Shown: positions 3,312 through 56,147 of the stretch, piece after piece
Layout: every line of letters starts with the position of its first letter
How positions within the stretch are numbered: the first letter of the stretch is position 1
From: Halichondria panicea
Lineage: Eukaryota; Porifera; Demospongiae; Suberitida; Halichondriidae
Length of the DNA: 64,000 nt
Reading direction: 5' to 3'
NCBI RefSeq assembly: GCF_963675165.1
Contig: NW_026986607.1
Span: 1 to 64,000 of the forward strand
Made by a program: the position numbers and the translations under genes
Notes under the pieces: model-generated
What the model saw: only the letters and a program-made list of their open reading frames with translations
Databases searched by the model: none
What the model was told of the DNA's origin: nothing

Positions 3312-3439
3312 ATTGCTCCCACAATTCCGAAGTCAGTGAAAATGGACTCCAAAGTGCAAATTGGCTCCTCTAAGTTGCAAATGGAAGAGCAAGAAACTGA
3401 GACGTAGCCATATGCTGCCATCACTACTTACCTACAATC

Positions 3440-16431: not shown

Positions 16432-16700
16432 CTTCTCTGTAGAGTGTGGAATAAGATATTGCAGTGAAATGTATGAGCATAGTTTATATTGGGAGTGTGC
16501 AATGATTACTACACTAAAGATCTACAGTATACAGTGCTGTCTAGTCTGTACTCACTGATAATAATCCAGAGGCTACATCTTCTTCAAATTTAATACACAT
16601 GTAGTCTACGTACGTACATGTACAACACATGTCTACATGTACTTAACCTCGCGTACTTATAACAGCTACTGAGCTACAAGATACTCCCCCTTTTGAGCAA
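16432..16700. promoter_or_regulatory. Divergent intergenic region between gene A and plus-strand fragment II
   Basis: About 270 bp separate the gene A start from plus-strand fragment II. The sequence from about 16672 (GAGCTACAAGA) onward is homologous to 26655 onward (upstream of gene B) and 34645 onward (beyond the gene C spacer). The recurrent head-to-head position suggests a duplicated bidirectional promoter region, but no TATA box or initiator can be assigned with confidence. Confidence 0.35.
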
Positions 16701-31300: not shown

Positions 31301-31662
31301 TAACAAACATTATATAATATGAATTCCAGCTCAATTAATTGGTACTTATACGTACCCTCTGACTTCACATCAGTAGACTGTACATGATCTTTCTCGATGG
31401 TCCTGGCTATGTAACTGAAGCCCACAATAGGACTAGACAATGCTTTGACAACATCTTCCCAGCGGCTCTCCCCATTTTTCAGCCATTCTTTCAAACCCTC
31501 ACGATAGCAGTCATCAGGATCATCTCGCCATTTCGTACCTATGCTGTCGATAGTATCCGAGGATACGTCAAGAACAAGCAAGAAGTTTCGCCACTTCACT
31601 CGAGCATCGAACGTGACTAAGTACACTTTCTTAAGATCTTCTATTGTGAGATAGTCAGACAT
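28344..31662 (-). CDS. Gene C: Death domain - TKL-like kinase - coiled coil - Kelch protein
   Basis: Five exons, all GT-AG and phase-consistent: 31662-31356 (Death; starts MSDYLTIEDLKKVYLVTF), 31227-30421 (kinase), 29825-29758 (linker), 29576-29478 (coiled coil 'HKDAELVRRDAIIQQQRL'), 29270-28344 (Kelch, stop at 28344). Total 2208 nt, 735 aa. The kinase has GSGAFGAV, AIKLL, HRDLCGDN, DFGMSR and YLPPEA, so all catalytic residues are present; it ends 'RRPSARDIC'. The Kelch part has six GG repeats. By family knowledge Death domains recruit other Death proteins and Kelch propellers bind protein partners, so a cytoplasmic signalling kinase is likely; substrates are unknown. The start ATG fits because gene A has the same start in its Death exon. 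No defects seen. Confidence 0.85.
30191..30404. mobile_element. TA-flanked palindromic MITE next to the kinase donor site of gene C
   Basis: CCGTATAGCGCGAAATTTTC pairs with CGAAATCCGCGCTATACAG; TA on both sides (30189-30190, 30405-30406). It lies 15 bp downstream of the kinase exon donor. The same element occupies the same site in gene D (38126-38339), so the insertion predates the C/D duplication. Confidence 0.8.
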
Positions 31663-36076: not shown

Positions 36077-37000
36077 CTAAGAACTTATAGAGAAGAAATC
36101 CACAGTTTGGATTTTAATCTTATTTACTATCTGTCCTCCGGCTACAATAACCTCTCCACTAGGAAGTACTGAGCATGTGCAGCAGTATCGTACAGTAGGC
36201 AGGTCTCCTACTTTCAACCACCTCCTGGTGTCAGGCTGGTAGAGGTGGATCGATGAACTTGGGTTGACTCTGTCATTCGCTCCACCAACGGCTAATAGTG
36301 ACCTCCCAATACTGAGAGGAGCTGACAACCCGAGTGGTACTTCTTGTAAGGTCTGCCAGAGAGTGGGTGTGTCCAGGTTGGAAAGGGCCTTTGTAATGAT
36401 GAGTTCATTGAGGTCGACGTGGTGCACTGTCTTGGTTGGCCCAGTGTGATCGTACCCTCCCATTAGGTAGAGGGTGTTTCCTATGAGAGTTGATTTCAGT
36501 TCTGATCGTGAGTTAGGTAGTGACTGAGCAATGTACCATCTTCTTGATGCCACGTCCAACACCTCCACAGAGGAGATACGACCATCACCATCACGCCCAC
36601 CAGCTACAATTATGTGGTTGTTGAAGGAGACAGCTGTTGAGGATTGACGAGCAATGTTCATTGGTGGGTACGGGTGAGTCCATTCCCCTGACTCGAGCAC
36701 TGAAAGTTGATTGCTGGGTGTGTTGTTTCTTGGATCACGTCCTCCCACTAGCACTAGTCGATTAGCGAGTGATGTCATACCAAACCACTTGGCAGTGTAC
36801 TCTGGTAGTTTGGTCCATTGATCTTGCTCGAGCTTCATCACTGTACACACGTTACAATCATCGCCTGCACTGCCTCCACCAACATACGCCGTGTCACCGA
36901 TAACAACACTCTGCACTGTGTAGCCCATCTTGATCGGCATGTCTTTTCCTCTTCTCCATTTCAGAGTGAGTGGAGGTCTCAACTCTCTTGGAGGGGGATC
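36077..37000 (-). CDS. Gene D Kelch propeller exon
   Basis: Terminal exon of gene D, 308 codons, stop at 36077. Six Kelch repeats with GG doublets (YVGGG, VLVGGRDP, IVAGGRDG, YLMGGYDH, LAVGGAND, IVAGGQ) and the expected Trp spaced downstream in each. It is nearly identical to the gene A Kelch exon and clearly more distant from that of gene C, although the D kinase is closest to C. This is a mosaic consistent with gene conversion or unequal exchange. Confidence 0.9.
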   Translation of the reverse strand, partial: DPPPRELRPPLTLKWRRGKDMPIKMGYTVQSVVIGDTAYVGGGSAGDDCNVCTVMKLEQDQWTKLPEYTAKWFGMTSLANRLVLVGGRDPRNNTPSNQLSVLESGEWTHPYPPMNIARQSSTAVSFNNHIIVAGGRDGDGRISSVEVLDVASRRWYIAQSLPNSRSELKSTLIGNTLYLMGGYDHTGPTKTVHHVDLNELIITKALSNLDTPTLWQTLQEVPLGLSAPLSIGRSLLAVGGANDRVNPSSSIHLYQPDTRRWLKVGDLPTVRYCCTCSVLPSGEVIVAGGQIVNKIKIQTVDFFSISS

Positions 37001-40000
37001 CTGAATAATGAATGAGCGTAATTAGGATAGTGTCTACTAACAAGCGAGTGTTACTTGTAGCAATAATTGTATGCACACTAAATCACTTTTTTGAATAATC
37101 GTATGGAGGGTAATGTCGTGGGGCAAAATATTCGTGGTTTTCTAGTTGAAGGTCTGACCACGAATATTTTACCCACGAATAAAGCGACCTTGCCTACCCT
37201 TCCCAGCAGTACAAGCAGCATGCAACCACGAAATGTCTCAAAATATTACCCACGAAACGTCTCAAAATGGCTGAACCACGAATATTTTGCCCCCTAAAAA
37301 TTACCCGCTATACTGAAGCTTAAGAGGTGAAGACCACCAGCCCACTAGAATGTACAAAACTATAACATCAAAGCTTCTACTATAGCTCTGCAATAATATA
37401 ATGGTGCATTGCACCTCACCTGTCTCTGTTCCTGTCTCTGTTGAATGATGGCGTCTCTCTTGACCAGCTCAGCATCTTTGTGCTCCATCTGTTCCCTGTG
37501 TGCCTGTACAGGGGAACGTTGGTGGAACTCATAGGAGAATGTAATAATTGTAGCAGTAGACAATTATGCTACAGAACTACAGAACAAAATTAATCTTTAC
37601 GCTAAAAAAATTATGTAACAATGAAACAGCACCCTAAGGAACAGTACTGTTGTTTGTGGCTGTAATCAAGAATCTCATTCACACACTACATGTACGCACC
37701 TTCTCGACTGGTAGAGTGTCCCTCTTTGTTGCCTCCACTGAGTCCGAGTCTCTTGTCAGTGAAACATCTAAAAGTAAGAATTAAACGTAAAAAACAAAAT
37801 CGACAAATTTTTCTGAAGTGTAAAACACATAATTATCATGCACTAGGTACCGTCAGGAGCACATTAAGAGGAGTATGCAACTCCCACGCACATGCATTCC
37901 ATCACTAACACTTGTAGTTGTGTAAACTATTAGCCATGAATAAAATTAAATGTGGGCTGGAGGTACAAACCACACGTGTGTGTGTGCCGATATCTAATAA
38001 CCACTACACCTACGCACCCACTTAAGATGTGGTCTGATAGTGACGTGGTATGACATGCTCCTACCGTAACCTGGTTTACACTACAACTGCTACAGTTGGA
38101 TACTCCTCTTAATGTACTCCTGGTACCGTATAGCGCGAAATTTTAGAGGCACTTATATTAATTTTCGTGGAATGGCCTCTAAAAGCATTTCGTTGCACAA
38201 TGTTCGCGGAATGACTGCTTACCGGAAGCCAAGCCTTTAAATCTTTGCACGTTATAGCAGATAATTCTAATTAAAGAATAATTTTCGTTGACTTAATTTT
38301 TGTGTAGGATTGCTAACCCACGAAATCCGCGCTATACAGTATCTAATAGACTCACAGATGTCCCTGGCAGATGGTCTCCTCGTCATGTCTTCTTGCAAAC
38401 AGCTGTCGATAAGCATCCTCAACCTGTGTGTGTGAGGGATCTGGGCAACATGGAATGATCGATCCTTGGCTGATTTGATCGTCTCTAACTTGCAAACAAT
38501 CTGCGTCAAAATCACCCCAAAAGAAAACACATCCAGGCTATTATCGTAATTCTCCTCTTCCAATCGATATGCCTCGGGAGGTAGATACCCTCTACGCTGA
38601 CCAATGGCTGTGAGGGTGGAGCTGAGCTTGGAGGGATCGTATAGTCGCGACATACCAAAGTCAGAAATCTTTGCAACAGGCACTGGCAGTGTCAGCTTCA
38701 GCAAGACGTTATCGCCACAGAGGTCACGGTGGATAATCAGCTTGCTGTGAATGTAGGCCAGACCACAAGCCATGTCTTTGGAGAGGCTAATTTCACATTC
38801 GCTAGTGAGGGACTCTTCATCAAGGCCAGAGAAATAGGATCTCAGATTGCAATCCATCAGCTCAACAACGAGGATTGTACCACCTGATTTGGGGTGCTTA
38901 GTAATCGACAAAAACTGAACAACGTTTGGGTGCTGGAACGACTTGAGAAAATCACTCTCACGATCTATTGCATCGCTAGCATCTTCACTTTTGGTGGCGG
39001 AAATATTTGTCTGCATCTCCATAGCAACCTGATGTAATAGTTTGATAGCACAAGGATCGCCTCTGTAGCTGCCTTTGAAGACTGCTCCAAATGCACCACT
39101 ACCGAGTGGCTCGTCCAGGAAAATGGTCAAATCATCATTGATCTTCTGGTGATTTTGGTCAACTGTAGGGTGTGGGGAGAGTGAGTGGGTGAGGCAGTGA
39201 ATTAACAGTGATCATGGAATTATAGGAAAGATTGCTAACAAACATTATATAATATGAATTCCAGCTCAATTAATTGGTACTTATACGTACCCTCTGACTT
39301 CATATCAGTAGACTGTAGATGATCTTTCTCGATGGTCCTGGCTATGTAGTTGAAGCCCACAATAGGACTAGACAATGCCCCCATCACATCTTCCCAGCTT
39401 CTCTCCCCACCCGTTAGCCATTCTGACAGTCCCTCACGATAGCAGTCATCAGGATTGTCACGCCATTTCGTACCTACATTGTTGATAGTAGCCGGGGATA
39501 CGTCAAGAACAAGCAAAATGTTTCGCCACTTAACTCGAGCATCAAACGTGACTAGGTACACTTTCTTAAGATCTTCTATGGTGAGATAGTCAGCCACAGA
39601 ATGTTGTTGCCTACTTGTTTGAGCATCTGTTGTCTTCAGGACGACTTCATTTAATCCACTCTCATACAAGACAGTAACAAGTTTATCTCGAGTAGCATCT
39701 TGCCCATCTCTTCTCTTCCACTCGTTGAAAAACCGATAAATCTGCTCTTTGAGGTCTCGTTCATTGGCATATTCAATTGATTGAATATCAATTTCCGTAA
39801 AACCAAGACTTCTGGCTAGGACCATCCAGTCTCGTCCAATGTGGTCAGAGACTTCACTGATGAGGGCATCCACTGACTCTACAGCATAGTCAGCATCAGG
39901 GGGCTCCAAGATTGATGGGTCTATTGCAATGGGATTCATGGTTGAGGAGGAAAGTGCATATCTCTCAAGTTCTTGAACAATTTTATCATGTCCTCGATGC

Positions 40001-43000
40001 TCCTCACTGGTCTTAAACAAGCAATCGTAGAGTAGGGCAAAACCATTTTTACCTCCATTTCTTTTTGTTAGATTGAGAAGATTAGATATTTTAGTTGAAT
40101 TATCAAGATTCGGCGATTGTACAGAATCGACGTCAGCCCGATGTACCAGACGATATTTGAGCAAGTATGGAAAGAGTGTGGATATGCTAACAAAGAGTGT
40201 GAGGTTAGGGAGACACTCTTTAAAGACATCTTCAGTCATGGAATACCGTTCAATCAGGGAGTCATCAATCAGGGAGTCATCAATCAGGGAGTCATCTGAG
40301 GATAAAAGAAAATAGTGATTATAGCTGTATGAAGTAGAAATGAGAAACATGATCTAGTATGAACGGCCCTATAATTATACTGTACTTTTAGAGCCTCTGC
40401 ATAAAGTTAAAATTATACCTGATTGTTTCAGATTCGAAATGACTTGTTGAACCTCCTCCCAGCTTGGGTTGTGATGAATGTGGAACCATTTTCTGATCAC
40501 CTCCATTAGTGCGGCATCCGTGTCTTGGCGGCACTGTACTGTTATGGTTTCCAGCGCATCACTCTCCAAGTTGAAGAGCATTCCCACTTTGTACCACGAA
40601 CTAGACCATGGAATGAGTTCAGCAAACACGTTGTGAACGGTAACTGCGTCAGCACCTATGTAATTATACAACCCAAAATAGTGATCAAGTTTTAATAATT
40701 AATTTTATACTTACTATCATGTATCTTGGTAAACCAGATGTCTTGAGTAGAAAAAAGTGCAAGCTTTTCATTTGTAGCAGAACATCTCCAGTGACCCTCT
40801 GTGCTAGGAACGATCATGTGTGTGTTGTCAACCTGACCACATGTGCAGTGAAACCCCACAACAGGAAGAGCTTGACCAGTAATGTGAAACGCTTCTGCGG
40901 CTTTGTTTAAACCAGTAACAATTGCTGTTCTGATAAATGGTAGAAACTCATAATCTTGCATCGAATTTGAATTGATATAAACAGTTAGTTCAGCATCTTC
41001 CTTTCTATACACATTTATGAGAGCATTGACTCCGGGTAGAATGAATTGCACAAAACTTTTGAATAGATCTCGACGAACATCAATTTTCCATGGCCATGGG
41101 TGACCATTGTACTGTGAGCACAAGTAGCACATGATGTATTCAAAACAACCATGGGCTAATAAACACTGGATCACAAGTGGAGCAACTTTGGTATCTTTCA
41201 AACCGGAAACAAAGCTGAAAGTTTCAACACTGACTTCTTCCCTCAGTAAGCATGGCATCAAGAATAACGAATTTTTCATTTCAATTAACAGATGTAAATC
41301 TTTAAAGAGGGATATTGCTTCTTTACATGTGAACAATCCTTCAGCATACATTACTTCACAAACTTCAAATGCAGAGAAGGGAATAATAGCTCCTCGATTA
41401 TGTTGTAGGTCAAAAAGGTTTATCTTTGCAATCAATTGGATCAATACGGTCGAATCCTTAAATATCACATTTGGAAGAACATTGCCAAAGTAAAGAATCA
41501 CACCAGTTATGTGCAGGCTAAGTAAGGCAATTTCAAGATCAGTTTCTGACATTCTGAATTCAGCAGCAATAGTCAATACTTCTTGCTTGCTAATAAAGTT
41601 CCGATTGTATTGTTGCATAACTTTCTTGATAGCGTGACCAAGCATGTGCCAGAATAAAGAGACTTGCTTCAGTTCACTCAAATCCAATGATGATACTAGC
41701 TGTCGTTCGATGTTTTCTATCTCCCTCAATGATTTGCCTACTTCAAATACTTCTTGTTTTCCATTTTTATCAGCAATTAATTTGGCTTGCTCATTATCCC
41801 TAAAGAGAATTTCACTATTTTTCTCAATCGACTCAACTTCTGCATGTGTTTCAACGACCATCAGTTTTGTTGCTAGCATACTGATGTCTTTTATTAGTTG
41901 CTTATTAGTAAAAGATACATCTGCTTCAATTTCAGTTTCGGGAACTAAAATTTTCTGAAGGATTATTTTTCCTTCGAGATCTTGGCTCAAACTCATACAG
42001 TTTATGCCTATGGCGATGCCTTTAAGGAAAATTGGTAGTACATTCAACAACCAAACATCAGAGCAGCATACGCAATTAATAATGTTCAAATTATCAAAAT
42101 CTTTTGTAAGCGATCGATCGCGATTTACCATTAGTTGTAAAATATTCTCAGGAGAGACACATTTTAATAGACTCTCTTTAGGTATTGGCTCATAGATTAG
42201 AATCTGATTAGAAGTGAGATGCTGTGGGGAGTTTCCAGCAGGTATCGATCTTGGTACTTCAACTTCTTTACCAACAGATTGAGCAGACCTTTCTTGCTTA
42301 TTTCGATCACTTGCAGAGTTTTCACTTGATGTCTCTTTGGGTCTTTGCTGTAGAAAATGTTCATCTGGCTCGGTTTGGCCAAGCACTATATTGGGTTGTT
42401 GGATGGAATGTTCATCTGACTTGTCATTTTTAGCTCCCTTTGGAGTCTGTACAGCTGCATTACAAGCAAACACCATATCCGAATCATCATCGTGTAAAGG
42501 TTTAATCTTTTCATCACTGACGGTATAGTAACTAAATTCAAAGCTGGGATCCAATGAGTGTGGTGATTCAAAAGGAGTAAAGTTCTTATCCATAATCAAA
42601 CGCTTGCAGGTATGGACATCTGATCCTGGCAGTCCAGTAAAAAGAATTGTTGTGAATCGCAGACCAAACTTCTTTCCTTTCATCGCAGCCTCAAATCTAG
42701 CCTCAGCATCTGCAACAATAAATTATTATTGGCTGTATAATTATATAGTAACACCATTATAATTTACCTTTTAGAGTAGCTATCTTTGGATGATGTTCAT
42801 CACTCAACCATATTTTGTGGGCAGCAGTGAGCTCCATTTGTTTGCCAGTATGTTCACCACATGTTACATGGTTATCAGTTGCAAATGGCAAATAATTGAG
42901 AAAGTGGATGCTAGATAAATGTTCGGAGCAAGAACATACAAATGTTAAGCGCATCGATTTCGTATTGATAACTCTTTGCAGCTGCACATTAAGAGTGGAT

Positions 43001-46000
43001 ACAATTTGAAGACATAGGTCAATATGGGGAATATTGTCATCAGTAAGTCCATCAAAGTGAGCTCGAACACAATCAATAAACTCAGTGAACACAAGCCGAA
43101 ACTGGTTATTAATTTCAAACGACACCATGTTCTTACAATTTATAAAATCGGGTGACAGTTTCCATATTATTCTGCCTTTTTTGATTCCAGAAAGTACGGT
43201 CATTAGTCTTGGAAAAAAACCTGGTGGTATAAACTTAGAGATTGGAACCAAAAACAGTGGTGCCACTTGTAAATCGGCTGGTAATACAGAACAGGCTGAA
43301 ATTCTCGTATGAAATACATGCTGATGATTAGGACAAATGGGAAGCACTTGGAGCATAGACGGAATAAAGTAGCTTTCCAGTAAAGGCATATGCATTGCTA
43401 AATGGTGTTCATCAAAGAAGTTTAGAATCCATGATAGCGGGAGACCAGTCTTACTATCCTCTAGAAGCTTTTTACCAACTTGGACATTCAGAATACCCTG
43501 TGTTTGAAGACTCTTCCATTGCTTAGGATGATCCTTATACACTTGGGGATCAAGAATAGTTCCAAGAATGGAAAGTAGGTTCTTAGGCTCAACAAAAACA
43601 TATTCTTGGAGCATTTTCTTGTTGTGATACCATATGAAGATACCAAGTTCATGAAAATAGCAAAGAGCTGCTCTAAGGTCTGTTTTACACTTTTTAGCTA
43701 TTTCACTAGCTTTTTCAAATGTCACAATTCCTGTGCAAGGCTGTTGTAAACATGATTCTCGTTCTAGATCAATCTTGAAAGCAATCCATTTGCTAGGTAT
43801 TTTTGCTTTGGCACTCTTTGTGCAGAAAACTATTTGCTCTCGCAAAGTTTTCATTCCAGGATCATCATACTTTGCTCCTGATTGTGTGTTGTCTATCTCA
43901 AACATAAAAGAGTTGGGTGTAGAAGTTGAAGGCAAGATTACCTTTTCATGAAAGTTCGTTCCTTGAGAGTTCAGATTGAGTTTTAACTGAAGGAGCATTT
44001 GATCCAAGTCTTGCTTGTCATCTACTTTAATCTGATCTTTGAAAGTACCGATAAAGGCTATTTTAGGAAAAACCGTTGCACTAGCTAATTCGAATACTCT
44101 CTTCTTTAATATATCTGGAAGGTTGCTGAGATGCACATCCAGTGAATTAGAGTCTAAGAAGGAAAGACTTCGATACAGGTAATCAGTATATGTGTAAGGA
44201 GACTCTCTCTCTATTTCAAGTGGGCAGGTAGGTCTAATGGAAGCGTTAGAATTTTCCAACAAATCACAAAGTCGAACAACAATACCATAAATGGATCTAA
44301 CTTTGGCGAAGCAAGGAAGAAGATCTTGAAACATTGGTTGCCCTCCTGTGTCCCAGAGAGTGAGATAAATATTATCTGGGTCGCTCTTATAAACACTGTC
44401 GTACTTCTTAAATACCACGGCGCTTTTCTTGGAGTCTATTGTACTTTCAAATGTTTCTTGGTAAAGCAGCTCCGGCTCCATTATGATTGTGCTTTTCTCC
44501 TTATCATTAAAGGGAATGTTCTGAAGATGCTTTCTGATGGACGTCTTTCCAACTCCCGTGTGGCCAATGAGAAGCATGTGCAAATGTGGTACCTCCAAAT
44601 ATTCAGAATCTGCTAGTTCAAAAGTAGCTTTCATTTCCAGGCTGGTTTTCTCCAACTCTAAATCGTATGAATAATTATAATGACATAGATAATTGCTGTT
44701 ACTTATAATAATACTTACTTACCTAGTATGTGTTCTAGTTCTTTGGCAACATCTGCTGTACTTGAAGAGCCTCGTTTATTGTCTGGGAACCACCTGTGCT
44801 TAAAAACGTTGAAAAGAATGTGGTTGTCAGGTAGTTTAGAATCGCTGTTGCACTGTTTACGATGAACCATCAAAAGAAGACTATCGTTGAGCCAATTCAA
44901 GCTGGGTAACTCTGGTTGGGTGTTGAGTTCCACTTTATGGAAGTAAGATTGCTCATATATAGGTAAAAACATAGCTTTTGTGTCATTAGTACTATATTTG
45001 TGTACAAACAGAGATTCTGTAGTCAATTGAAGGGTAATATTTGGTGAGAACCCAAGAACACTAATAGCAGCATTCAATAACAATGAAAGCTGTTGTATTT
45101 CAGATAAGGCCTCAGATAAAAAGCAATACTCTTTTAATGGTTGCTGAACTTCAAACAGGACAACAGGGTGTGAATAGAGTTTAGTATCAAAATGAATGCA
45201 TTTTGCTGGCATTACATTGGGCTTATTCGTTTGCACATCCTCGATGTATTTGGTGAATTTCAATTTATCACCTTCACCATTGTATACTAATGCCATACAT
45301 TGCTGTCCATTGTGAAGAGCTTTCCAGAGCGAGCATGGAGACACGTCTAGGTCCATTTCCTTTTGTAGTTCAAGTTTAGTTTCACAAAAAGTGTTGAGAA
45401 TTTGATTGTAGGTTACTTCCACTTCAGATCCAGGATCTACAATAAAATCAACTATCATACTGAATAATCTAAAAAATAATTTACTTGCCTGTAAAAGTGT
45501 ATTCAATGTCCGTGGTATCAATATCTGCCTCTTCTCCATCAATTGTCTCATTGTCTGCTTCACTACATGTACTGCTGATCTCACCCATCCCACTGCTATC
45601 GAGACTAGACACAGAACCTGCATAAATTAACAAATGACATGCATAGCTTACAAGTACCGTATATACTAGTATATACTTATACCACACTTACGTCACCACT
45701 CATTGGTCAACAGCTGTAGGATATTATAGCCCAGGCATGCACAGTTTTCAAGTTTTCAAGAAAGTAAGCAAAGACGGTTCTAAAACTCAAAGCAACGGCA
45801 GAAACACGGAAGCTGCTCTCCAACAAGATGGCTAAGCTTCCATGGCACGGTTAAGATACATTTTATCCAAGAAATCTTGCAACTCCAGTAAGGGACGTCG
45901 AATGGTCAACGCTTAGCATCTGTATAGGAGTTGACGTGTTGCTCAACTAGCTCTTTGATGGCTTGAAGAAGATCAATTGACTGCTTCAGCATATGTGCCA

Positions 46001-49000
46001 ACTCCCGTAATAGTTCACAAAAGCACTATATGTTTTGTACCTCTAGCTAGCTAGCCACTATAGATCTATTGGCAGGCTGAAAGATTAATGATTTTCATTT
46101 CAATACTTCAGCATTAGCATAGATCTATGGCATTAGATATCAGCCACTACACTTAATTGCAAGACTCCACGAGTAGAACGACGAAGATGATACAAAGCAG
46201 AGATTTGACTGAGATTTGTGATGCTCATCAATGGATGTTGTGTTACTCTAGCTAGTGGACTTAGCTGTATACATATACTGAGCGATTTTTTTACAAGATT
46301 ATCATGTGTGACTTAACTATTTATAGCACAGCAACTCAGGAGCAATAATACTAAACCAAACTAGAGGCATGCTGAGTATTTTGACGTTTTACTATAGATA
46401 TTATATGTACTGTGGACTAGGATCACAGCAAAGAAGCCTGGAGTCTCAGAATGACAAGCACCCTCATGACCCTACGCTGCCTTATAATTAAATTTTGACT
46501 CGATATTGAGACATAAAACGAGTGTGTCCATCAGAAAAGTCACGGAGAGCGCACAAAGTTGCGAAAATCGACGTAAAGAGTAATTTTTTTCCTCGTGTTT
46601 TGGTCTGCTCCCCCGCACAGTGTATGGGGGGATCTTAAGGAGGGTGAAAGCTAAAACCCTATATATATAATTATTATATTATGTATAGTTTCATAATACT
46701 CTTAATTGTGTTGTGTATACCTTGTACAGTGACATCATTCTTTGGACGCTTTGACAGAGTTTCAACTTCTTCATCTGATGGTAATGATCTTCTGCGCTGG
46801 CCTGAGGCTAGAGGATCTGTATGTAGTGTGTAGGAACAGATACAGTGCTAAATTAGAGCACTGGTGCTAACCCTCGGCTGTTGACATAAATAATTAAAAA
46901 GGAGTATTCAATTAAGATATATTTTCATCAGTCTTGGTCTGTTGATTGTTGAACACCTACACAATACCTATACCATACTCTACCAAGATTATGACCACCC
47001 TAATTGCATGCTACAAAGCAGTTACATGCATGCAGGTGGGATGAGCTTTATCTTCGAAAACATGTAGTTTACGCTCATGACTAATGAGTGCACTCATAAG
47101 TCTTTTCTGTCTGCATGACAAATGCATCACTCCTGTTCTCGAGGCAATTAGCCTATGCAGGAACTTCCACTCAAAAGTGGGGATGGGCATAATTTCGAAC
47201 GTGGGCGTAACCTTGGTAGAGTATACACGTGTACACATGCATGTGTGTGATAAATGCTGATACTAACCTCCATACATCAGCACTAAACCTTGAATGGTCG
47301 GAACACTGTCACCTATCACTGATTCAGAGTCATCCTTTTCAGAAGATATATCTCTGACTTTTTGGCTGTGCAAATCTTCAGGAACAGTTGAGGGTTTTAT
47401 CTCAGTTCTGAAACAGAAGCCACACAATTACACAGTATACTATAATGATTGACTCATTTGAAAAATCAAACACTTACCCTTGCATGCATGGGTTGTTGTC
47501 GTTACATGTACGTGGTGATTTTATTTTAGAAGTACGCAAATGCCACATATGAAACATCGTATATAGTGTTGGAAATCTTATTAGTTATTGTGTCACTACG
47601 TATTATGTCATCAGTATTGTAATCACATGATCAGACACATGTTGTGAGAAATGAATGAAAGATGAACAAGAGTCAATATCTGTAGTATAGCGATAATGAG
47701 AACAGTTTGAACAGTTAAGGTTAAGTAAGAGTGAATTCTGATGGTCCTTCGAACCGGATTGGAATCGGAAGTCTACAAACAAGTTTGCGAAGACTACTCA
47801 ACGGATCACTCTACTGTCTGCTCACATAGTGTGCAATGACCGACGCAGAAGTCTCAACAAGGAAGAAAAGAATACGCACTGGCCACAAGGCGTCGGCCAC
47901 GCGCACTCTGGGTCAACTGGCTGTTGCTCTTGGAGAAACACCCCCAAACCCAGATCGACTGTCTCTACTTAAGCAGCCCCTCGAACAAAAGTTGGAAACA
48001 CTAAAGGGATTAGATTATTGAACTTACCCCAGAGGAAACCCTTGATGATGAAAATCAACAAGCCGACGAGTATCGGGAGCGAATATATGAAGCCTTGACA
48101 CGAATCAAAAGAGCTGAACCTCCTGCTACAGCACCTGGGATTGCCCCACCTACGACCACTCGAGGTTCTGAACGAGGGGCGAGAGTTCAACTGCCCAAAC
48201 TAACACTTCCACACTTTAATGGTGACCTGATGAAATGGCCAACCTTTTGGGACTCATATGAGTCCGCTATTCACAATAACGATGGGCTAACAGACACGGA
48301 CAAGTTCAATTATCTGAGGTCCCTGGTGGAACGAACTGCGTATGATGCCATTTCCGGACTCACCGTGTCGACCGTTAACTATCAAGAAGCGATTGAGATC
48401 CTGCAGAAAAGGTTTGGCAATAAACAACTGATAATCTCGAAGCATATGGAGACACTGTTGACGGTTGGAGGCTGTGACATCAGACCAGAACCTGAAGGAT
48501 CTGCGACGACTCTACGACAGCACCGAATCACGCATGAGAAGTTTGAAGTCCCTAGGAGTGGAATCAGAATCGTATGGGGCTATGCTCTCCTCTGTGCTGC
48601 TAACCAAGCTACCTACCGATCTGCGTCTCATTGTCAGCCGTAAGGTCACATCCACAGATTTGAACATGGATAGCCTACTTAAAACCTTCGAAGAAGAACT
48701 GGTCGCTAGAGAGAGAGCTTCCAACTCCAACTCCTCCCATACACCACCACGTCGAAACCAAGATCGAGGCCGACAAACTTCCTCTACCCTATTGTCAAGG
48801 GTGCAGGAACCATACAAGAGCTGGCGTAAGTTGTAGCTACTGCCAGCAATCCCACTCGTCAACCGACTGCAAGACTGTAATCAGCCTCACTTTTTTCCAG
48901 GACGGTACTGTCAAGGAACACTTAGCGGAACTAAGCTGCGAATGGGTGTTCAACGTTGAACGCGCACCATGGTCGGGTGGTGTCTTCGAGAGAATGGTCA

Positions 49001-52000
49001 AATCGACAAAACGTTGCTTACGCAAAGTGATATGGAGAGCCCACCTCTCGCATGATGAACTCCTCACTGCAGTCACGGAAATCGAAGCCGTTATCATATC
49101 TCGGCCAACGATTTGGAGGAAGAACTCGCTCCTTCTCATTTGATTGTGGGACGTCGAATTCTAAACTTACCCGACCATATTGGATATCTATGTGATTCTA
49201 CCGATGATGAAGAGTTCTCAATCAATTCTACACAACTTGCGAAACGCGTTAAGCATCTCAGCAGTATACATTGAATCACTTTTGGAATCGATGGAGAACC
49301 GAGTATTTAGCAGAACTGAGGGTAGCCCATTACCATTCTGTGAAGAAAGTTGCCAATTCTGGAGACCACAACCTGTCCATTGGAGATGTCGTGATCGTAT
49401 ACAACAAACACCTACCCCGTGGACTTTGGAAGCTCGAGAGGATACAGGAACTCATGAAGGGTCAAGACGGACAATTTAGGGGTGCCACAGTCAAGATGGC
49501 CACGAGAGGTCGCCAACAGACTCTGCTGCATCGACCGATCCAACTACTATACCCCTTAGAAGTGAGATGCCCAATGGACCAGAGAAGCCAACTAACGATG
49601 CCGAGGAACCTGACACCGAACAAGAAGCTGACGTGGTCAAGGAAGGTCCTATGGAAACTCGACAAAGAACAACACGTGTTGCAGCCCAACATGTATGAAC
49701 TGGAAGACAATTGAACTTAAAGGACTGAACTTAAGATTATGTTATCCCGATTGTTGACCATGTTTGGTCAACGGGGGGAGTGTGTTGGAAATCTTATTAG
49801 TTATTGTGTCACTACGTATTATGTCATCAGTATTGTAATCACATGATCAGACACATGTTGTGAGAAATGGATGAAAGATGAACAAGAGTCAATCTAATTG
49901 AATCCTGTAGTACAACCTTTTTCACCTCATTTGAAATACACATTTTAAAAACAAAAAAAGAAATGTACCACTAATTGACCTCAGGTATGTACATATAGTA
50001 ATAGTCAGAGCTGGGCATGTTCACAATTTCAAATTGTTAATGAATGATAGATTGTGCAAGACCTAGATCTAAGCCTTCTTTAGAGTGATGTGCAAGACCT
50101 AGATCTAAGCCTTCTTTAGAGTGAATCCTATAGACGTTTAGGGCATAATGTGGCAGCACTTGTAGATCTACCAGCAATCTGAATTTCAGGTAGTCGGCTT
50201 TTCAAATCATCTCAATGACGATTAGTTTATCGTGAGATCATCTAGACAGTACTCCCTTGGGCTGGCTTTATTAGCAGACACATCTCCAGTGTGTTGAAAT
50301 CTATCAACAACCCTCCAAACAGTAGCTTCAGCAACAAACAATCTATCTACTGCTTCCTTAATGGTACAGCAATTGACAAGCCTTTGCCATATACCATTCT
50401 CCACCTCAGATTCTCATGATAGGATTTTGTACGGCCAGGTTCCCCCATTATTACTTGGTCTTGCACAATCAATCATTTATGAAACTGTGAACATGCCCAG
50501 CTCTGACCATTACTATATGTACATACCTGAGGTCAATTAGTGGTACATTTCTTTTTTTGTGTATATTTCAAGTGAGGTGAAAAAGGTTGTATAGCGATAA
50601 TAAGAACAGTTTGAACAGAGTGAATTCTGATTATTTACATATAGCAATACATACAGCATTTTCGTGAGGTGCAAAATTTCGCGTTTTTCGAAAGTATATA
50701 GAGCAGTAACACGAAAATTAAAGCCGGGATAAACTCCCATGCACGCACCGGTATTTTACATGCAAAGCTATTGGTGGGTGTGGTTTCCTGACATTGAACC
50801 GCGAATATTAGAACTCACGAACATTTTTGCTGAGGGCTCTGGAGCCAAACAGCAAACATTTGCACCCACGAAAATTTCCCGCTATAATGGTATGTGCCCC
50901 CTACACCTTTGTATCAGTAATAGTACCTCTCAACAGTTGTAGGTGCATCTTGAAAAATACTGATTCCTGCCTCACAGAGAGAAGCTAGTTGTGAAACCGT
51001 GGGTGGAAATAACTGAGCAAAAGCCTTTGCAGAAAAAAGGAACCTTAGACACAAGCATCCATCCTCGATACTGCATAAGCGAAATGTCCATTCATTCACG
51101 TTAAAGATAGAAGCAATGGTATCTTTGGCTGAGATAACATCACGAAGGGAAGAGTATCCACTTGAAGTTAGTTTCACTGTCAAAATGTTTGTACCGTTCC
51201 TTGATTCAGGTAAGCTGGGAAAGGTGTTGCGGGGAATCTCAAAGGCACTTCTTTTACAATAGTTGTCGAATGCAATTACATAATCCTTCATGATCATTTT
51301 GTCCTTTTTGGAGCCGAATTCCAATACAATACTATTGACAATTTTGTAGTTCAAGAAAGACTTGTACGGCCTAAGGGCAACAAAAATAGAAGGAATTGTA
51401 TCAGCTATTTCCAGTTTTGCGATGTATTCCTTCTCATCCGAAGATGAAATCATATCCAAAACAAAATTTTTGACCACCGCTACATCTTCCTTCGCTACAT
51501 CTTCCTTGAGATTTTTTGCAATAGCAGTGTCGGCTCTAGCAAAGAGCTCGATCATATTCTGAGTATCCTTTCTGAGAGTGGCCTCTAGTACTGATCGATC
51601 TTCTTTAGAGAGTGCTGGTGTGTTGAGGTATGGAAAGAGGGTTTCACCAGTTGCTTTGTGGAAGGAATTTTTTGACAAGTACTGCTCAAGCGTGCATTTC
51701 TGACAATATGGACAGATAAAGCTGGGCCCTATAAAGAAAGAAGATTATGAAAAACAGTCAATAATTATTTTAAAACCAGTAGGCTTTCACGGGTAACGTT
51801 GTACCAATCTTGAAGCGTGTATAATTATAGTATTTTGCATGCACATACGTATAAATTTCACTAGTATTCGAACTGTTATAATTATCTTGACATTGGCGTG
51901 AATGAATCAAAACAGCATGGAAAGTATACCATACCCTCGCGAAAATAAGCCCACCCTTTTCTGCAAGAAGTCTAGGCTTATTAGGGGACTGGGCGTTTAA

Positions 52001-55000
52001 TCGCGAACGGCTTGTTTTCATTTGAATATACGCCCATTCGCGGCCTCAAATCGAGGTTTACACTTTGCTCTATGACAATTCTTTAATTTTAATACATACT
52101 TTTAGTATGAACATTTCATTGACAACAACAATGTTATAAACTAATGCGTGAGTATGATTAAAGCATGACAAGAGAATGAACACGAAGAAGTGGACTCTGA
52201 CTCTATTCGTTGCTTGTCAATGTCAGATGTTAGCAGAAACTTTCCGAAGGATGGTAGGTCACACTCCTACAGAGCAGCTATCAGGTACTTTGTTTCAGAA
52301 ACCCAAGGCAAGGTAACCTGCAAAATTAGCGTGTGTGATAACTTTCTTGGACTTTGTGTTTTCCTTTCTCAGCATGTAGGACTACTTGTTCCCTGCATAT
52401 ACATCTTTAAGAGAAAACTGATCCATACAGAGAAAGTTATATGTCTGATCTTGGTCCAGCAAGGAGTATAGTCTTACTATATCTGCTACCTAAAACTTCC
52501 TTTCTTCGTAGTTAACATGTGACATTCAGCTACTGCGCATGCTCATCTCTTTATTCTGGGTGGGCTTATAATCGAGTGAAAATACCCTCGTGCAAGAACT
52601 TCAAAGCAAAAGAGGGGATGGGCGTTTATTCAAGATGGGCTTATTTTCGCGAGGGTACGGTACATGCATTTATCGCCTTTATCGTGTATATGAACGTGTG
52701 CTATGATATTTGTTTATGCATAATCATGTAAAAGGGCTTGTAGAATAATGAAAGCACTGCGGGTGCTATACATGTAGCCTCTACACAGGCTCTCCTTTTT
52801 CTGTTCTTTATCACAATCGTTCAATAAGATAAAATACTGTATTATTCGTTCAATGAGATAAAATACGGTATTAATTGGAGGAATAAAGAAAGAAATAGAC
52901 GTAAAGTTAGGAAAAAGGAGAGCCTGTATCGGGAAGTCGCGTGAGGGTAGAAGGGTGGTAGAAGGGTGAAAATGAGCGTGGGCATACTGAGCTAGAGATG
53001 TTGGACTGCCCACGCAGAGGTCTACGACTAGTAAAACTTTGCCTGCTGCAAGCTGGACATGGACTTGGAACTGGAAGTTTGCAAGCACTATAGCTAGCTA
53101 TACCTTAGGCTTAGCTAGATGATCTACTAGTCTAGATTGTATGTTTAGATTCTATCACTATTACCTTTTCTTGTGTCTTTCTACATGCTATAGTAGAATA
53201 GCTTAGTCATCATTATCATATAGCAGGTAGCTACTGCCACCAGAGCTGGCCACGCTGGTTCTCTGATCTGACTTGCAGCACAGCTTGGTGGTTGTCTCAG
53301 TGCAGTACAGTACAGTCTTACTCGGAATGCGTGGGAGAATACCTTACGTCACGATTGTGGGCTACATATCGCCCACGTTCATAAAAATCCTTGTGGATCA
53401 CGCGATTTCCCAAACCAGGCCTTACGTTTTCTTAACTGTACGCCCATTTCTTTCTTTGCTGCCTCACTATGTCTTTCTTATGTTTATGGATGAACAGTGA
53501 CAACAGCAAGAAAAAGTAAGGCCTGGGAACGAGGCTACTATACATGATGCCTCGGTGAAGGTGTAAAACTTACATATTAACATAAAGCTGCTTTTATATA
53601 CTAGCTCTTTGACGGTTGCAAAATCCGGCATATAGTCTTGTTCTTTTTGCAGTCTGCATCGTGGGATTGAATTTTTGCTAGGGGGAGGTCCTTTTATAGT
53701 GCTGCGGTCACGTGGTATATAAGTCAGATATGCCACACCTACTCGGAGAATATGCACCCTATATATCCTCCGCTACAGTGGTTACATACCCCTCGGAGTA
53801 ACCATGCACAGTAACGGAGGATATAATTATGGGTGCATGCATATCCTCCTCTTATAGGTGTGGTATATCTAAAACAATTTTCGTGGGCTTAATTTTTGTG
53901 TAGGATTGCTAACCCACAAAATCAACGAAAATTAAGCCCCTCGAAAATTTAGCGATTTACGGTGTATACATGCAGATGCTCATACATGCAGATGCTCAAG
54001 AGTTTAATAAAGATTATGAATCTCATTAACGCTAAAAGTAATTATATATAGAGATTGTACCTTGTAGAGCCGTGTAGACCTGGATATCATCAATGGTGAT
54101 GGATAGAAAGCCATTATTTGCTAAGAATTCAAGTTCTTTTCCTTGCTTCAACTGTTCCTCTATTGAGCACGCCAGAGAAGGAGGGACGTACAAGATGATG
54201 CTTTTGACACCACCTGCCACAAGAATAAATTCCTGAGATAGGGAAAATCCTTTCGAAAAAAGTTTGCTAGTTGTCTTCACATCATACAAAGTACAGTCTT
54301 CCCATTTTTTGCATACTTTTTTAACGACTATTCGTTTCAACTTAACCATTGATGGCTTTGCAATTAAATACGGCCAATAGTCAACAAAATCGCAAAGTTT
54401 AGTTTTAATAAGAAATGTTTTCCTTTCACTCTCATACTCGGCTAGCTTCCTCAGCAAAGGATTGTCTGCTTCAGTGAACATAACTCGAACCACGTGTTGG
54501 AAGAGCTCATAGTTCAAGAAATCCCAGAATTGATTTAACTTGCCCCATATCTCTGCGAGCATGTTCGCTTTCTCGAAGCATTCTTCAACATAATTTCCTG
54601 TAATGTGCTTTAACGATACACTCATGCTCGTTACAATAGCATAGAAATTGTCTACACTAATGCCAGATTTCTTAATTCGTTGATACCCTTCGTTAGTTAG
54701 CAAATTAAAGATCTCCTCCAGGTGTTTAACTTGGTCATCCAGGCTTGAGTAATCTGAGCCTGCAGGTAATGAATTAACTGATTGTTCAGGTTACGAAAAT
54801 CAATACTTACCAATTAGGCCAGTTTCTGATAAAGGAGACGGAAATTTAGACTGCTTTTTGCTCATCATTCCTATTGAAGAGCAAAAAAAGTGATCATTTG
54901 CTGAATTAATCAATAATAATTATGTTATAATTATTTGGGTACCAATTCTCCACTCCTCAATCTTCTCCGCCACATCCTTACGGTCCACGGTTGGAGATCG

Positions 55001-55258
55001 GAGACAGTCACACACATCCCTCCATGAGAGGGGGCCACCAGAGTGCAGACGTTTAATCAGCATTTCACGGAGACAGGTGTCAAGATTTTGGCTGTTTATT
55101 TCGTGGATCGCACTCAAGTCGTTACCATCAATGTTCAGGTTCAATCCAATATTGAACCATTTAGTACGAGCAGGATAGAGTTGTTTATGCAGTGGTGAAA
55201 GGTCATCACATATATCTGTGTGCGTGTGGGTGTGTATGTGTGTGCATGCTCTGCGCAC
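36077..55258 (-). CDS. Gene D: giant Death - (Roc-COR)x2 - Death/CARD - kinase - Kelch gene, 16 exons
   Basis: Exons, minus strand: 55258-54943, 54870-54811, 54759-54061, 51728-50927, 47407-47268, 46816-46721, 45617-45489, 45436-44723, 44657-42768, 42709-40715, 40655-40419, 40295-39291, 39162-38356, 37767-37700, 37527-37420, 37000-36077. The sum is 9990 nt, exactly divisible by 3 (3329 aa). Every junction agrees in phase (twelve phase 1, one phase 2, two phase 0); one intron is GC-AG. Approximate domain order: Death 15-105, two helical repeats 126-358 and 360-625, acidic linker to 747, 240-aa unassigned region, Roc-COR from 986, degenerate Roc-COR from 1616, Death 2281-2359, CARD-like and two Deaths 2375-2690, kinase 2695-2963, coiled coil, six Kelch repeats 3022-3329. 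The start is uncertain: 55215 is also a good acceptor, and ATG 47485 could begin a shorter form after the 3.5 kb intron. Seen: exons and phases. Inferred: that one transcript spans all of it. Confidence 0.6.
37100..37314. mobile_element. MITE (GGGGCAAAATATTCGTGG) in gene D intron 15
   Basis: GGGGCAAAATATTCGTGGTT at the left pairs with CCACGAATATTTTGCCCC at the right, with GGGTAAT / ATTACCC outside. Additional CACGAA(A/T) blocks repeat inside. It is absent from the corresponding introns of B and C, so it inserted after the duplications. Confidence 0.75.
37420..37767 (-). CDS. Gene D linker and coiled-coil exons
   Basis: Exon 37767-37700 encodes 'SLTRDSDSVEATKRDTLPVEK'-type linker sequence (phase 1 in, 0 out) and exon 37527-37420 a short heptad-like coiled coil (HREQMEHKDAELVKRDAIIQ). 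The second exon is 9 nt longer than in gene C through a QEQRQ-type duplication. Both are shared with genes A (linker only), B (coiled coil) and C. Confidence 0.8.
38126..38339. mobile_element. TA-flanked MITE next to the kinase donor site of gene D
   Basis: The ortholog of 30191-30404 in gene C: same position 15 bp or so from the donor, same ends CCGTATAGCGCG / CGCGCTATACAG, TA on each side. It gives an internal clock for the C/D duplication. Confidence 0.8.
38356..39162 (-). CDS. Gene D kinase exon
   Basis: A single phase 1-1 exon encoding a complete kinase: glycine loop GSGAFGAVFKG, Lys in CAIKLL, HPNVVQFL, HRDLCGDN, DFGMSRLY, GYLPPEAYRL, DVFSFGVILTQ, and C-lobe Arg in TRRPSARD. TKL-like by motif style, with HRDL and not HRDLAARN of receptor tyrosine kinases. 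No missing catalytic residue. Differs from the gene C kinase at only a handful of positions. Confidence 0.9.
39291..40295 (-). CDS. Gene D CARD-like - Death - Death exon
   Basis: One phase 1-1 exon of 1005 nt. It opens with a triple DDSLI repeat (three 15-bp units at 40249-40295), then a CARD-like helical segment ('LPYLLKYRLVHRADV...', 'NGFALLYDCLFKT'), then a Death domain with 'IGRDWMVLARSLGFTEIDI' and 'YRFFNEWKRRDG', then a second Death, 'DYLTIEDLKKVYLVTFDARV', equivalent to the single Death of genes A and C. The CARD call rests on the L-x-x-K-x-L-x-x-x-x-V pattern and the GFALL-x-x-CL end and is tentative; the Death calls are firmer. Confidence 0.75.
40419..40655 (-). CDS. Gene D third-from-last Death exon
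   Basis: Phase 1-1 exon of 237 nt. The sequence 'SSSWYKVGMLFNLESDALET', followed by 'IRKWFHIHHNPSWEEVQQVI', matches the Death-domain pattern W-x-x-G-x-x-L-x-x-x-x-L then W-x-x-V-x-x-x-L. It stands alone as an exon, as expected for a shuffled adaptor module. Confidence 0.8.
40715..42709 (-). CDS. Gene D second Roc-COR-like module with degenerate P-loop
   Basis: Phase 1-1 exon of 1995 nt, about 665 codons. The N-terminus 'FGLRFTTILFTGLPGSDVHT' aligns by position with the P-loop strand of a small GTPase but lacks the GxxxxGK(S/T) Lys; no switch II WDTGGQ is seen, and that region is replaced by a long low-complexity Gln/Ser/Glu insert. The C-terminal half ('FISKQEVLTIAAEF', 'GVILYFGNVLPNVIF', 'LIQLIAKINLF', 'HLLIEMKNSLFLMPCLL') has the COR-like helical pattern seen in the first module, and it ends with CTCG..GHWRCS, possibly metal-binding. 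Interpreted as a pseudo-GTPase copy of the upstream module. Confidence 0.65.
42768..44657 (-). CDS. Gene D Roc-COR GTPase module
   Basis: Phase 1-1 exon of 1890 nt. Roc GTPase: Walker A 'LLIGHTGVGKTSIRKHL', then 'YLTLWDTGGQPMFQDLLP' (switch II, as in Roc, Rab and Galpha families), 'IAFIGTFKDQI' where the N/TKxD-like base motif would sit. COR-like region: 'LGIFIWYHNKKMLQEYVFVE', 'LLSILGTILDP', 'QGILNVQVGKKLL', 'ESYFIPSMLQVLP'. ROCO proteins use GTP-dependent dimerisation of Roc-COR to control an attached kinase, and this gene also carries a kinase downstream, so the arrangement makes sense. No leucine-rich repeats are present. Confidence 0.85.
44723..45436 (-). CDS. Gene D unassigned 237-codon exon
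   Basis: Phase 1-1 exon. It starts 'DPGSEVEVTYNQILNTFCET' and ends 'STADVAKELEHILG'. The middle has alternating strands and helices ('HPVVLFEVQQPLKEYCFLSE', 'LLLNAAISVLGF'). The end looks superficially like a kinase C-lobe tail, but there is no HRD, DFG or Gly loop. I do not recognise it. Confidence 0.6.
45489..47407 (-). CDS. Gene D acidic linker exons
   Basis: Three small exons (47407-47268, 46816-46721, 45617-45489) encode a Ser/Asp/Glu-rich, probably disordered linker with 'SSEKDDSESVIGDS', 'GQRRRSLPSDEEVETLSKRP' and 'STCSEADNETIDGEEADI'. RRRS and KRP patches could be phosphorylation or nuclear-localisation sites. The last exon ends at ACAG|GCAAGT, a GC-AG intron; the nearby GT would break the frame. 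Confidence 0.65.
47567..50639 (+). mobile_element. BEL/Pao LTR retrotransposon, internally deleted
   Basis: LTRs start TGTTGGAAATC at 47567 and 49783. The 5' LTR ends about 47741 and is followed by a tRNA-type primer site TGGTCCTTCGAACCGG; a purine tract CGGGGGGAG precedes the 3' LTR. TATAG flanks the element (47562-47566 and 50640-50644), assuming a 9-bp loss at the 5' LTR end. From 47836 the gag has a Pao-type domain ('RVQLPKLTLPHFNGDLMKWP') and a CCHC knuckle ('CSYCQQSHSSTDC'), with frame breaks near 48018 and 48465. At about 48890 the sequence jumps to the integrase end ('WSGGVFERMVKSTKR') and the DUF5641-like tail ('LSIGDVVIVYNKHLPRGLWK'), so protease, RT, RNase H and most of the integrase are deleted. 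It lies in a gene D intron, antisense to the gene. Confidence 0.85.
49913..50589. mobile_element. mariner/Tc1-like element nested in the BEL 3' LTR
   Basis: CAACCTTTTTCACCTCA at 49913 is mirrored by TGAGGTGAAAAAGGTTG ending at 50589, with TA on both sides; the LTR sequence resumes as TAGCGATAA, as in the 5' LTR. The inverted arms extend about 110 bp (including GAGCTGGGCATGTTCAC). A minus-strand frame at 50404-50222 reads 'TIKEAVDRLFVAEATVWRVVDRFQHTG', a helix-turn-helix like that at the N-terminus of Tc1/mariner transposases. The catalytic part is absent. Confidence 0.8.
50640..50893. mobile_element. MITE hit by the BEL/Pao insertion
   Basis: TATAGC...CATTTTCGTGAGGTGCAAA pairs with TTTGCACCCACGAAAATTTCCCGCTATA near 50893. 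The left end continues across the BEL insertion to about 47560 (CGTATATAG), so the TATAG duplication of the retrotransposon is MITE terminus. It is the same general family as 57132-57400. Confidence 0.65.
50927..51728 (-). CDS. Gene D second helical-domain exon with N-terminal Cys cluster
   Basis: Exon of 802 nt (phase 1 in, 2 out). It begins GPSFICPYCQKCTLEQYL, a CxxCxxC cluster that may bind metal, then a helical domain with 'YKSFLNYKIVNSIVLEFGS' and 'YVIAFDNYCKRSAFEIP', and a strand-rich end 'FRLCSIEDGCLCLRFLFSA'. It is a diverged repeat of the preceding exon's domain (FLNY...). Its phase-2 donor fits only the 47407 acceptor across the BEL-bearing intron. Confidence 0.8.
51729..54060. other. 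Gene D intron 3 with several inverted-repeat elements
   Basis: 51928-52662: ACCCTCGCGAAAATAAGCCC pairs with GGGCTTATTTTCGCGAGGGT. 52783-52928: AGGCTCTCCTTTTTC pairs with GAAAAAGGAGAGCCT. 53722-53878: AGATATGCCACACCTA pairs with TAGGTGTGGTATATCT, with CCTCCG..CGGAGG inside. 53874-53958: ACGAAAATTAAGCCC hairpin. No exon is recognised; the plus-strand open frames are short and unsupported. Confidence 0.6.
54061..54759 (-). CDS. Gene D first helical-domain exon
   Basis: Phase 1-1 exon of 699 nt. Key blocks: 'YSSLDDQVKHLEEIFNLLT', 'FWDFLNYELFQHVVRVMFTE', 'KTKLCDFVDYWPYL', 'VVKKVCKKWEDCTLYDVKTT' and 'FILVAGGVKSIILYVPPSLA'. I recall domains with the same FLNY, DF and CTL-x-D landmarks in sponge and cnidarian Death-domain proteins, but have no name or function for it. 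The position directly after a Death domain supports a signalling scaffold role. Confidence 0.75.
54811..55258 (-). CDS. Gene D N-terminal Death exon and linker exon
   Basis: Exon 55258-54943 encodes a Death domain ('KWFNIGLNLNIDGNDLSAI', 'RLHSGGPLSWRDVCDCL'); exon 54870-54811 is a 20-codon linker. The first ATG at 55258 reads through a TG/CA microsatellite (MRRACTHIHTHTHT...), which is unusual for a start. The alternative acceptor at 55215 (CGCACACAG) has the phase 1 typical of this gene and would require an upstream exon that I did not find. Confidence 0.7.
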
Positions 55259-56147
55259 TTAAGGCCCGGGTCCAGATTTTAACACCAAAATTTACACTAT
55301 GTTCATACTGCTGTATTATTTGCAATATACAGTGTATGCTGCATCAAAATGATCCAAAATGAAGCTCAATGTTTTCTTTTTCCAAAAAACTAATTAGCTT
55401 AATTCAATTATGCTAATTAGTCCCATAAATGATGATGACGTCATGCCACTTTCAGAAAGAGAAGTGCAAATACGGCGTTGAAGATGCCAAGATCAAGCTT
55501 TAAAAACAAGGCTAGATGAACATCTCATAGCTAGGTACTAGTATCCTTGATGGGAAGAGTAGGAGTTATTGTATTCTTGAGATACACAAAATAGCCTACC
55601 TCTAGGGTGGCTGTCAGAGCTAAAGAAGCTAGCATAGCTAAGAAAGTTTTGGACATTTTTACTTCCCATCAAGGAAACATAATCATAACAACATAATCTA
55701 TCTTTTGAGGGCCTAAACAGCTACTCTTACCTTGTTTAAGTCCGCCGTATTTGTTGCCAAAGATAATCTATAATAGTTCTAGCAGCTAGCTAAGCAAATA
55801 CATTGACCTTATGACGTCATGTGCAATGAATAACATTAATAAACATTATGAATCTCATTAACACTACATGATCTACATGATCTACATAAAATGTAGGCAA
55901 TGAATAAAATTAATCTTATCAGTGCCTGACCCAGGCCTTAACTGCCCAGAGTGCTGTGCAACAATATCTTGTAATGATTCCACTAACAAAATTCATGCCC
56001 TCATACACGATTTCTTGGAATGTGTTTTATTTGTTACACTGTACTTTCCCCCATGTTACCCTCATCCACCATGTTGAGTAGGCCAAAGAATTTACTATAA
56101 AGAGAACAATACTTCAGTCCTGTGAATAAATTAAAAAGCTATATATA
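55259..56147. other. Upstream of gene D, no gene seen
   Basis: AT-rich. CTTGATGGGAAG (about 55550) is inverted as CTTCCCATCAAG (about 55665), a loose inverted repeat. No exon, promoter motif or RNA gene could be supported. Confidence 0.4.

Follow-up and report, generated by a model that had tools for sequence, protein, structure and literature searches.

The gene studied here (the focal gene) is encoded on the minus strand of C28, a small unplaced contig (94,770 bases) of the sponge Halichondria panicea, and all positions refer to the window, i.e., the whole 64,000-nucleotide stretch that was analyzed. The rebuilt model has 17 exons and 9,936 nt and codes for 3,311 residues plus the stop. The original prediction was a chain of 16 exons and 9,990 nt; the exon count and the length had to be revised, but the chain is open through all exons, without a single internal stop over 3,311 codons, and the junctions 50927/47407, 40715/40655, 39291/39162, and 38356/37767 are exact exon borders of the rebuilt model. 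Every junction is also in phase, as had been stated. However, we rejected this as proof of one gene since the introns are mostly phase 1 (13 of 16 junctions), and a wrong junction would pass such a weak test with a probability of ca. 0.68. A better argument, which we regard as strong evidence at the sequence level, is that the fusion point falls inside a single exon (E12, see below). Position 55258, formerly taken as the 5' end, is merely where the reading frame opens, with no start codon before the first Death-like domain. A phase-matched start results if the acceptor at 55215 is combined with a 13-nt exon (E00, coding for MVDE) located at 56060 to 56072, although this exon is kept in only one (L033) of the five relatives checked, broken in another (L031), and not found in the other three, so that its assignment as the true start is tentative.

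A Pfam HMM check of ten pieces of the protein, all outside the linkers E05 to E07, recovered the Roc, COR-like, Death, kinase, and six-blade Kelch domains recognized before. From the 5' end, E01 (54943 to 55215) codes for a Death-like domain, similar (tblastn, 32 to 37%) to the Death domains of the gene array in the window and with a Pfam Death match in one of six relatives (0.018). After a linker (E02, 54811 to 54870) come the modules E03 (54061 to 54759) and E04 (50927 to 51728), with 36 and 111 matches in the genome, respectively. They had been listed as two unknown helical domains; we read them as DED-like plus TRADD-N-like modules, with the first half of E03 described simply as helical. 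The AF2 model of E04 (pLDDT 80) has a helical half (approximately residues 60 to 160) and an alpha+beta, RRM-like half (residues 174 to 266). DED chains occupied ranks 1 to 6 for the helical half, at Z values (8.5 to 9.7) within the range in which helical matches can be due to chance (below ca. 13), and TRADD-N (1f3v, Z 5.3) was one among many RRM-like folds matching the other half. Foldseek gave no match to this model at E 0.001 (the best, at E 0.024, was not a DED). By sequence the similarity is weak, with PF20694 (TRADD-like_N) matching 3 of 19 sequences (best 0.0086; focal, 0.16). E03 is akin to the E04 family by hhalign (probability 96, E 4.9e-9).

Three linkers follow: E05 (47268 to 47407), E06 (46721 to 46816), and the acidic E07 (45489 to 45617). 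E08 (44723 to 45436) codes for a degenerate domain that we call only kinase-like because PF07714 matched just two of nine aligned sequences (best 1e-5; focal, none; AF2 pLDDT 39). The Roc domain of E09 (42768 to 44657) is clear (PF08477, 41.4 bits for a cut-off of 27, 2e-10; P-loop GHTGVGKTS and WDTGGQ by eye); behind it, PF16095 is covered completely (1 to 143 of 143, 8.3e-7) but at 29.4 bits, below the cut-off of 35.3, hence COR-like. E10 (40715 to 42709) has a degenerate Roc with valine at the position of the P-loop lysine (V32, invariant in seven copies) and a second COR-like region (PF16095, 2.4e-4, under the curated cut-off). The Death-like domain of E11 (40419 to 40655) was matched by Pfam in four of seven copies (best 0.013). 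E12 (39291 to 40295) codes for a CARD-like part (PF00619 in five of seven copies, best 0.0013; focal, none), the Death domain of the ROCO hub (PF00531, 64.7 bits for a cut-off of 22.6, 8.6e-18), and then the Death domain of the array gene. E13 (38356 to 39162) is a TK/TKL-like protein kinase (PF07714, 126.7 bits, 1.3e-36) whose K, HRD, and DFG motifs have their usual form by eye; among PDB sequences it had one match at E ≤1e-20, EGFR. A linker (E14, 37700 to 37767), a coiled coil identified by eye (E15, 37420 to 37503), and a six-blade Kelch propeller with the stop codon (E16, 36077 to 37000; PF01344, 92.5 bits, 1.1e-26; six GG motifs) complete the gene. Profile searches of PDB sequences with the alignments of E08, E10, the CARD-like part, E11, and E01 retrieved no Death-fold, kinase, or ROCO relative, and Rfam had no match. 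The domain order given before omitted the kinase-like remnant of E08. We propose the order Death-like, two DED/TRADD-N-like modules, linkers, kinase-like remnant, Roc-COR, degenerate Roc-COR, Death-like, CARD-like, Death, Death, kinase, coil, and Kelch.

Two gene families and the join in exon E12

The 5' part of the gene, from E00 to approximately residue 234 of E12, represents a ROCO hub gene that exists in seven close copies, namely, the focal one and those on C6 (0.73 Mb), C1 (C1a, 3.01 Mb, and C1b, 3.10 Mb), C10 (1.20 Mb), C12 (5.09 Mb), and C4 (7.74 Mb). E10 used as a query gave 68 genome matches, with seven loci at 71 to 97% to the focal copy, four at 31% (C10:4.29-4.44 Mb), and others weaker; E08 found the same seven hub loci and the same four on C10 (12 rows). 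Donor and acceptor sites of E07/E08, E08/E09, E09/E10, and E10/E11 are present in all six sister copies, although three of these have the E10 donor displaced by a few bases, and the E11 donor was found in five (not in C10). For the E11/E12 acceptor, our script placed no site in five sisters and a wrong one in C6. The donor of E07 is GC in every hub copy except C1b (GT). At the beginning of E12 (40250 to 40296), the focal copy has three perfect 15-nt repeats (DDSLI), of which the six other copies have a single one. No match to the focal kinase was found within 5.1 to 6.4 kb downstream of the hub in C1a, C1b, C10, and C4, which argues that the hub is independent of the fusion.

The 3' part is a Death-kinase-coil-Kelch gene that belongs to a large array. 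The kinase query gave 143 scored matches (771 candidates), the first 108 of them at 76% or more (the focal one included, some partial) and mostly located at C6:0-0.8 Mb and C1:15.5-17.4 Mb. Adjacent Death and kinase matches with identical frame lengths are found in six array copies, in which both domains seem to share one uninterrupted frame, and some array copies carry stops. The window itself has three further Kelch exons of the same array. One belongs to a separate Death-kinase-coil-Kelch gene (unit C, 28344 to 31662, minus strand) with its own ATG at 31662-31660. Another unit (A, 12821 to 16521) has Death and Kelch exons with no long kinase frame between them and, since matches of the same score recur on C6, may be a kinase-less type of gene. 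Upstream of the Kelch exon of unit B (20342 to 21286), at 23895 to 26468, there are frames of what by eye is a different kinase, and array Kelch exons may thus be paired with unlike kinases.

Both parts meet inside E12 at 39595/39594, with one frame across. Homology to unit C starts at 39596 and extends towards the 3' end, and that to the hub copies (C6, C1a, and C1b) stops at 39595. Five array genes compared have AA(A/G)ATGTCTGACTATCTC at this position, which is their ATG start; the focal gene has TGTGGCTGACTATCTC, with GTG in place of ATG, directly behind the hub tail CAACAACATTC. On the 3' side, DNA identity to unit C is 93%, and the nearest array relative (C6:585) shares 96% with the focal gene along 1.7 kb beginning at the join. 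Past the join, the first in-frame ATG is found close to where the second Death domain ends. In four hub copies, C6, C1a, C1b, and C10, the stop lies within ca. 16 codons of the position of the join: C6 and C1a end in HSVYL and a stop, C1b stops ca. 12 codons later, and C10 some codons earlier (KKS). C4, its Death domain lost, continues into other codons until it stops. Among the array Death matches listed (at least 151), ten lie in frames of more than 200 codons: the focal one, six in which the kinase shares the frame, one that has a stop (427 codons), and two of 243 codons; the remaining frames are too short for such a hub exon.

Because no stop interrupts E12, which both parts share, and because the second Death domain is almost over before an in-frame ATG occurs, the best reading is one continuous coding gene, as had been predicted, but a chimera of two families rather than a single old unit. 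In this one assembly, a ROCO hub joined in frame to an array gene at 39595/39594 is what we consider probable. Judged from its sequence, the focal gene is a young chimera of two families that are otherwise apart in the genome (bar C12 and C6, see below) and not an old platform. What can be read directly from the DNA is the open frame, the pair of parent families, the site of the break, and the sisters with separate ends; a single transcript spliced as one unit, and its function, we infer. The same stretch could be two transcription units, with the hub ending on its own and the kinase-Kelch part having a separate promoter or being made through internal initiation. The stop between the parts in C6, the ATG of unit C, and ATTAAA motifs at 40696 and 39655 would fit this arrangement. 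Yet the focal copy retains neither the hub stop nor the array start codon, hub sequence has taken the place of what precedes the ATG in array genes, and the first in-frame ATG after the join is as distant as stated above, so we regard two units as quite unlikely. Assembly errors are likely around the focal gene because the contig is small and unplaced and the array was recently duplicated, and the join could have been made by the collapse of similar repeats in a 94.8-kb contig that has pieces up to 99% like the C6 copies. We nonetheless find an artefact improbable: the frame is kept at the join, the break point differs from that of C6, the hub adjoins the kinase array also on the large contig C6, and the few bases shared by the two sides (by eye) are too few for a false overlap.

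Further joins and selection

The continuous chimeric gene is not the only place where hub and sensor genes meet. The C12 copy (L019, C12:5091613-5093650) is a ROCO-Death-Kelch combination with no kinase in between and a break point unlike the focal one. Its hub is joined, inside its last Death domain and in one open frame, to a further Death domain; the nearest relatives of the latter (57 to 83%) are clustered at C12:5.72-5.80 Mb, where the relatives of its Kelch exon (73 to 79%) are also found. This Kelch exon was identified by a 22% match to E16 (5e-12), not by Pfam. The phases of the linker and Kelch exons agree, and the stretch read is open from the CARD-like exon to the Kelch, so by its sequence the C12 copy looks independently fused to another sensor gene. 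In C6, the hub tail and its stop run into the intron before the kinase exon of a kinase-Kelch gene, the second Death exon being missing. A donor-like GTAGGC located before this stop (L015, 8320 to 8620) could splice in phase to the kinase (phase judged by eye). Altogether, of the seven hub copies, two look fused and C6 abuts, with a different break point in each of the three cases. The apparently independent merger of a second hub copy suggests that merged proteins keep being made. We put forward only tentatively, as a doubtful generalization, that this genome repeatedly makes immune proteins with hub and sensor in a single chain, by fusing copies of the ROCO/Death/TRADD-N hub in frame to members of expanded Death-(kinase)-Kelch families whose propeller loops are under diversifying selection. 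C28 and C12, and possibly C6 if splicing bypasses its stop, would then be three separate events of different ages.

Selection was estimated by the Nei-Gojobori method as the mean over pairs of copies, which are not independent of each other. Mean dN/dS was 0.21 for the kinase (three copies), 0.36 for E08 (seven), 0.47 for E10 (seven), and 0.76 for the Kelch (five; single pairs ranged from 0.33 to 1.02). Between the focal gene and C6, the values were 0.31 for E09 (dS 0.26), 0.67 for E10, 0.13 for E11, 0.63 for residues 1 to 234 of E12, and 0.37 for E13, but constraint after the fusion cannot be read from this pair because dS is only 0.02 to 0.04 in E10 to E13, i.e., too few changes. The fusion might be real and yet neutral, unused, and heading to decay, and the low divergence, the stops in some array copies, and the values of 0.63 to 0.67 (E12 and E10) would agree with that. 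This is a possibility of some substance, if not the one that we favor, given that all 17 exons are intact and that the C12 fusion, which looks older (79 to 83% to its nearest relatives), is still open over the stretch read.

Within the Kelch, the loops (defined as the nine columns after each GG) had a dN/dS of 1.79 versus 0.46 for the rest, a contrast to be taken as descriptive because the loop rule was chosen after the variable columns were visible. The whole-Kelch value of 1.02 in one pair could also be compatible with relaxed constraint. Kelch propellers elsewhere act as substrate or cytoskeleton adaptors. The focal one might likewise be an adaptor for the kinase and not an immune sensor, its loop variation reflecting relaxed constraint or gene conversion, to which the mosaic similarity between copies (see below) and the whole-exon range of dN/dS point. 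With the variation placed in the loops and the framework at 0.46 (under the same loop rule, set with the variable columns known), we hold this to be somewhat unlikely.

Possible role and relation to known proteins

By the probable join at 39595/39594, the hub gene lost its stop and the neighboring array gene its start codon, and a single exon now leads from the last Death domain of the hub into that of the array gene. The sensor-plus-hub role could work as follows. The Kelch propeller, with the fastest-changing loops, would bind a variable ligand, and this would free or cluster the kinase. Death, CARD-like, and DED-like domains would recruit further adaptors, the Roc-COR GTPase would set the dimer or oligomer state, and the fusion would provide a covalent link between sensor and hub in place of a Death-Death contact between two proteins. 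An immune role of this kind would be plausible, considering the domain content, the fast Kelch loops, and previous work on Death/TRADD-N proteins (PMC8195603).

Like the members of the ROCO family (LRRK1/2, DAPK1, MASL1, and the Dictyostelium Rocos), the focal product would be a large multidomain protein with Roc followed by a COR-like region. It shares with LRRK and the Dictyostelium Rocos a kinase C-terminal to Roc-COR and with DAPK1 a Death domain. However, DAPK-type proteins have kinase and ankyrin before Roc and Death at the end, whereas here no ankyrin was found in the pieces scanned, the intact kinase comes after Roc-COR, and it is the degenerate kinase-like E08 that precedes Roc. LRRs, as in LRRK-type ROCO proteins, were not found either (no family at E 0.1 in the same ten pieces). 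Also unlike the family are the several Death-fold domains, the second, degenerate Roc-COR, and a kinase gained by fusion from another family. Roc-COR has been discussed as a dimerizing switch in ROCO proteins (PMC6337361), and Rocos with Kelch or WD40 propellers have been reported (PMC6320773). In the sponge Amphimedon, a lineage-specific expansion of Death/TRADD-N proteins comprises 357 proteins, up to half of them with a unique architecture, for which gene fusion was proposed as a source (Kaur et al. 2021, PMC8195603). As proposed for the focal gene, N-terminal Death-like and TRADD-N domains are there combined with a variable C terminus that may include a kinase; the terms “kelch” and “Roc-COR” are absent from the main text of that paper. 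The candidate immune receptors of the ROCO type in brown algae also have a ROCO hub, a fast-changing repeat sensor, and exon shuffling, but their sensor consists of LRR exons and here whole genes would be fused (Teng et al. 2024, PMC11378527). The same article also refers to at least 17 ROCO genes of placozoans, which have LRR, TPR, CARD, and Death domains.

Among the titles and abstract openings listed in our search, which covered few subscription papers, none dealt with a ROCO-Death-kinase-Kelch protein. Plant NLR proteins with integrated domains have a sensor domain fused into a signaling hub. Their hub and sensor folds differ from those described here, and the comparison is an analogy only. 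If real, the focal gene would be an animal counterpart of such integrated sensors in plant immune receptors and a case of domain shuffling caught in the act, with members of each parent family, the precise break point, and separate-ended sisters in one genome. The gain of a new signaling architecture would then be datable and testable, and the gene would show one concrete way in which Death/TRADD-N architectures could have become so diverse in early animals.

Mosaic similarity and a retroelement remnant

Compared in 500-nt windows, the focal gene is 93 to 99% identical to C6 between 39.5 and 43 kb; in the windows between 43.5 and 45.5 kb, its identity to C1a is 96, 98, 88, and 96%. The flank at 60 to 63 kb is 81 to 88% identical to stretches upstream of the hub copies C1a, C1b, and C4. 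From this mosaic similarity and the matching flanks, recombination or gene conversion between copies seems to be frequent. We considered whether C28 could be a plain allele of the C6 locus and found no support for this: the proteins of E10 to E13 are 96 to 99% identical, but those of E08 and E09 only 77 to 84%, E01 to E06 are unmatched in the C6 stretch compared, and the break points differ. The derivation of C6 from the focal copy by deletion is also unlikely since C6 has kept the hub tail TGTACTTATAAT, as has C1a. In C6, an N-terminal module that by eye is DED/TRADD-N-like, with phase-1 borders, is found 53 nt before E07.

The intron between E04 and E05 (3.5 kb) carries a retroelement remnant; C1a, without the remnant, has the same donor and acceptor ca. 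440 nt apart. The remnant lies at 47566 to 49893, between 112-bp direct repeats that are 99% alike; its frames are on the plus strand, and we take it to be BEL/Pao-like. At 740 to 4888, on both strands, there are further frames, presumably pieces of a retroelement integrase.
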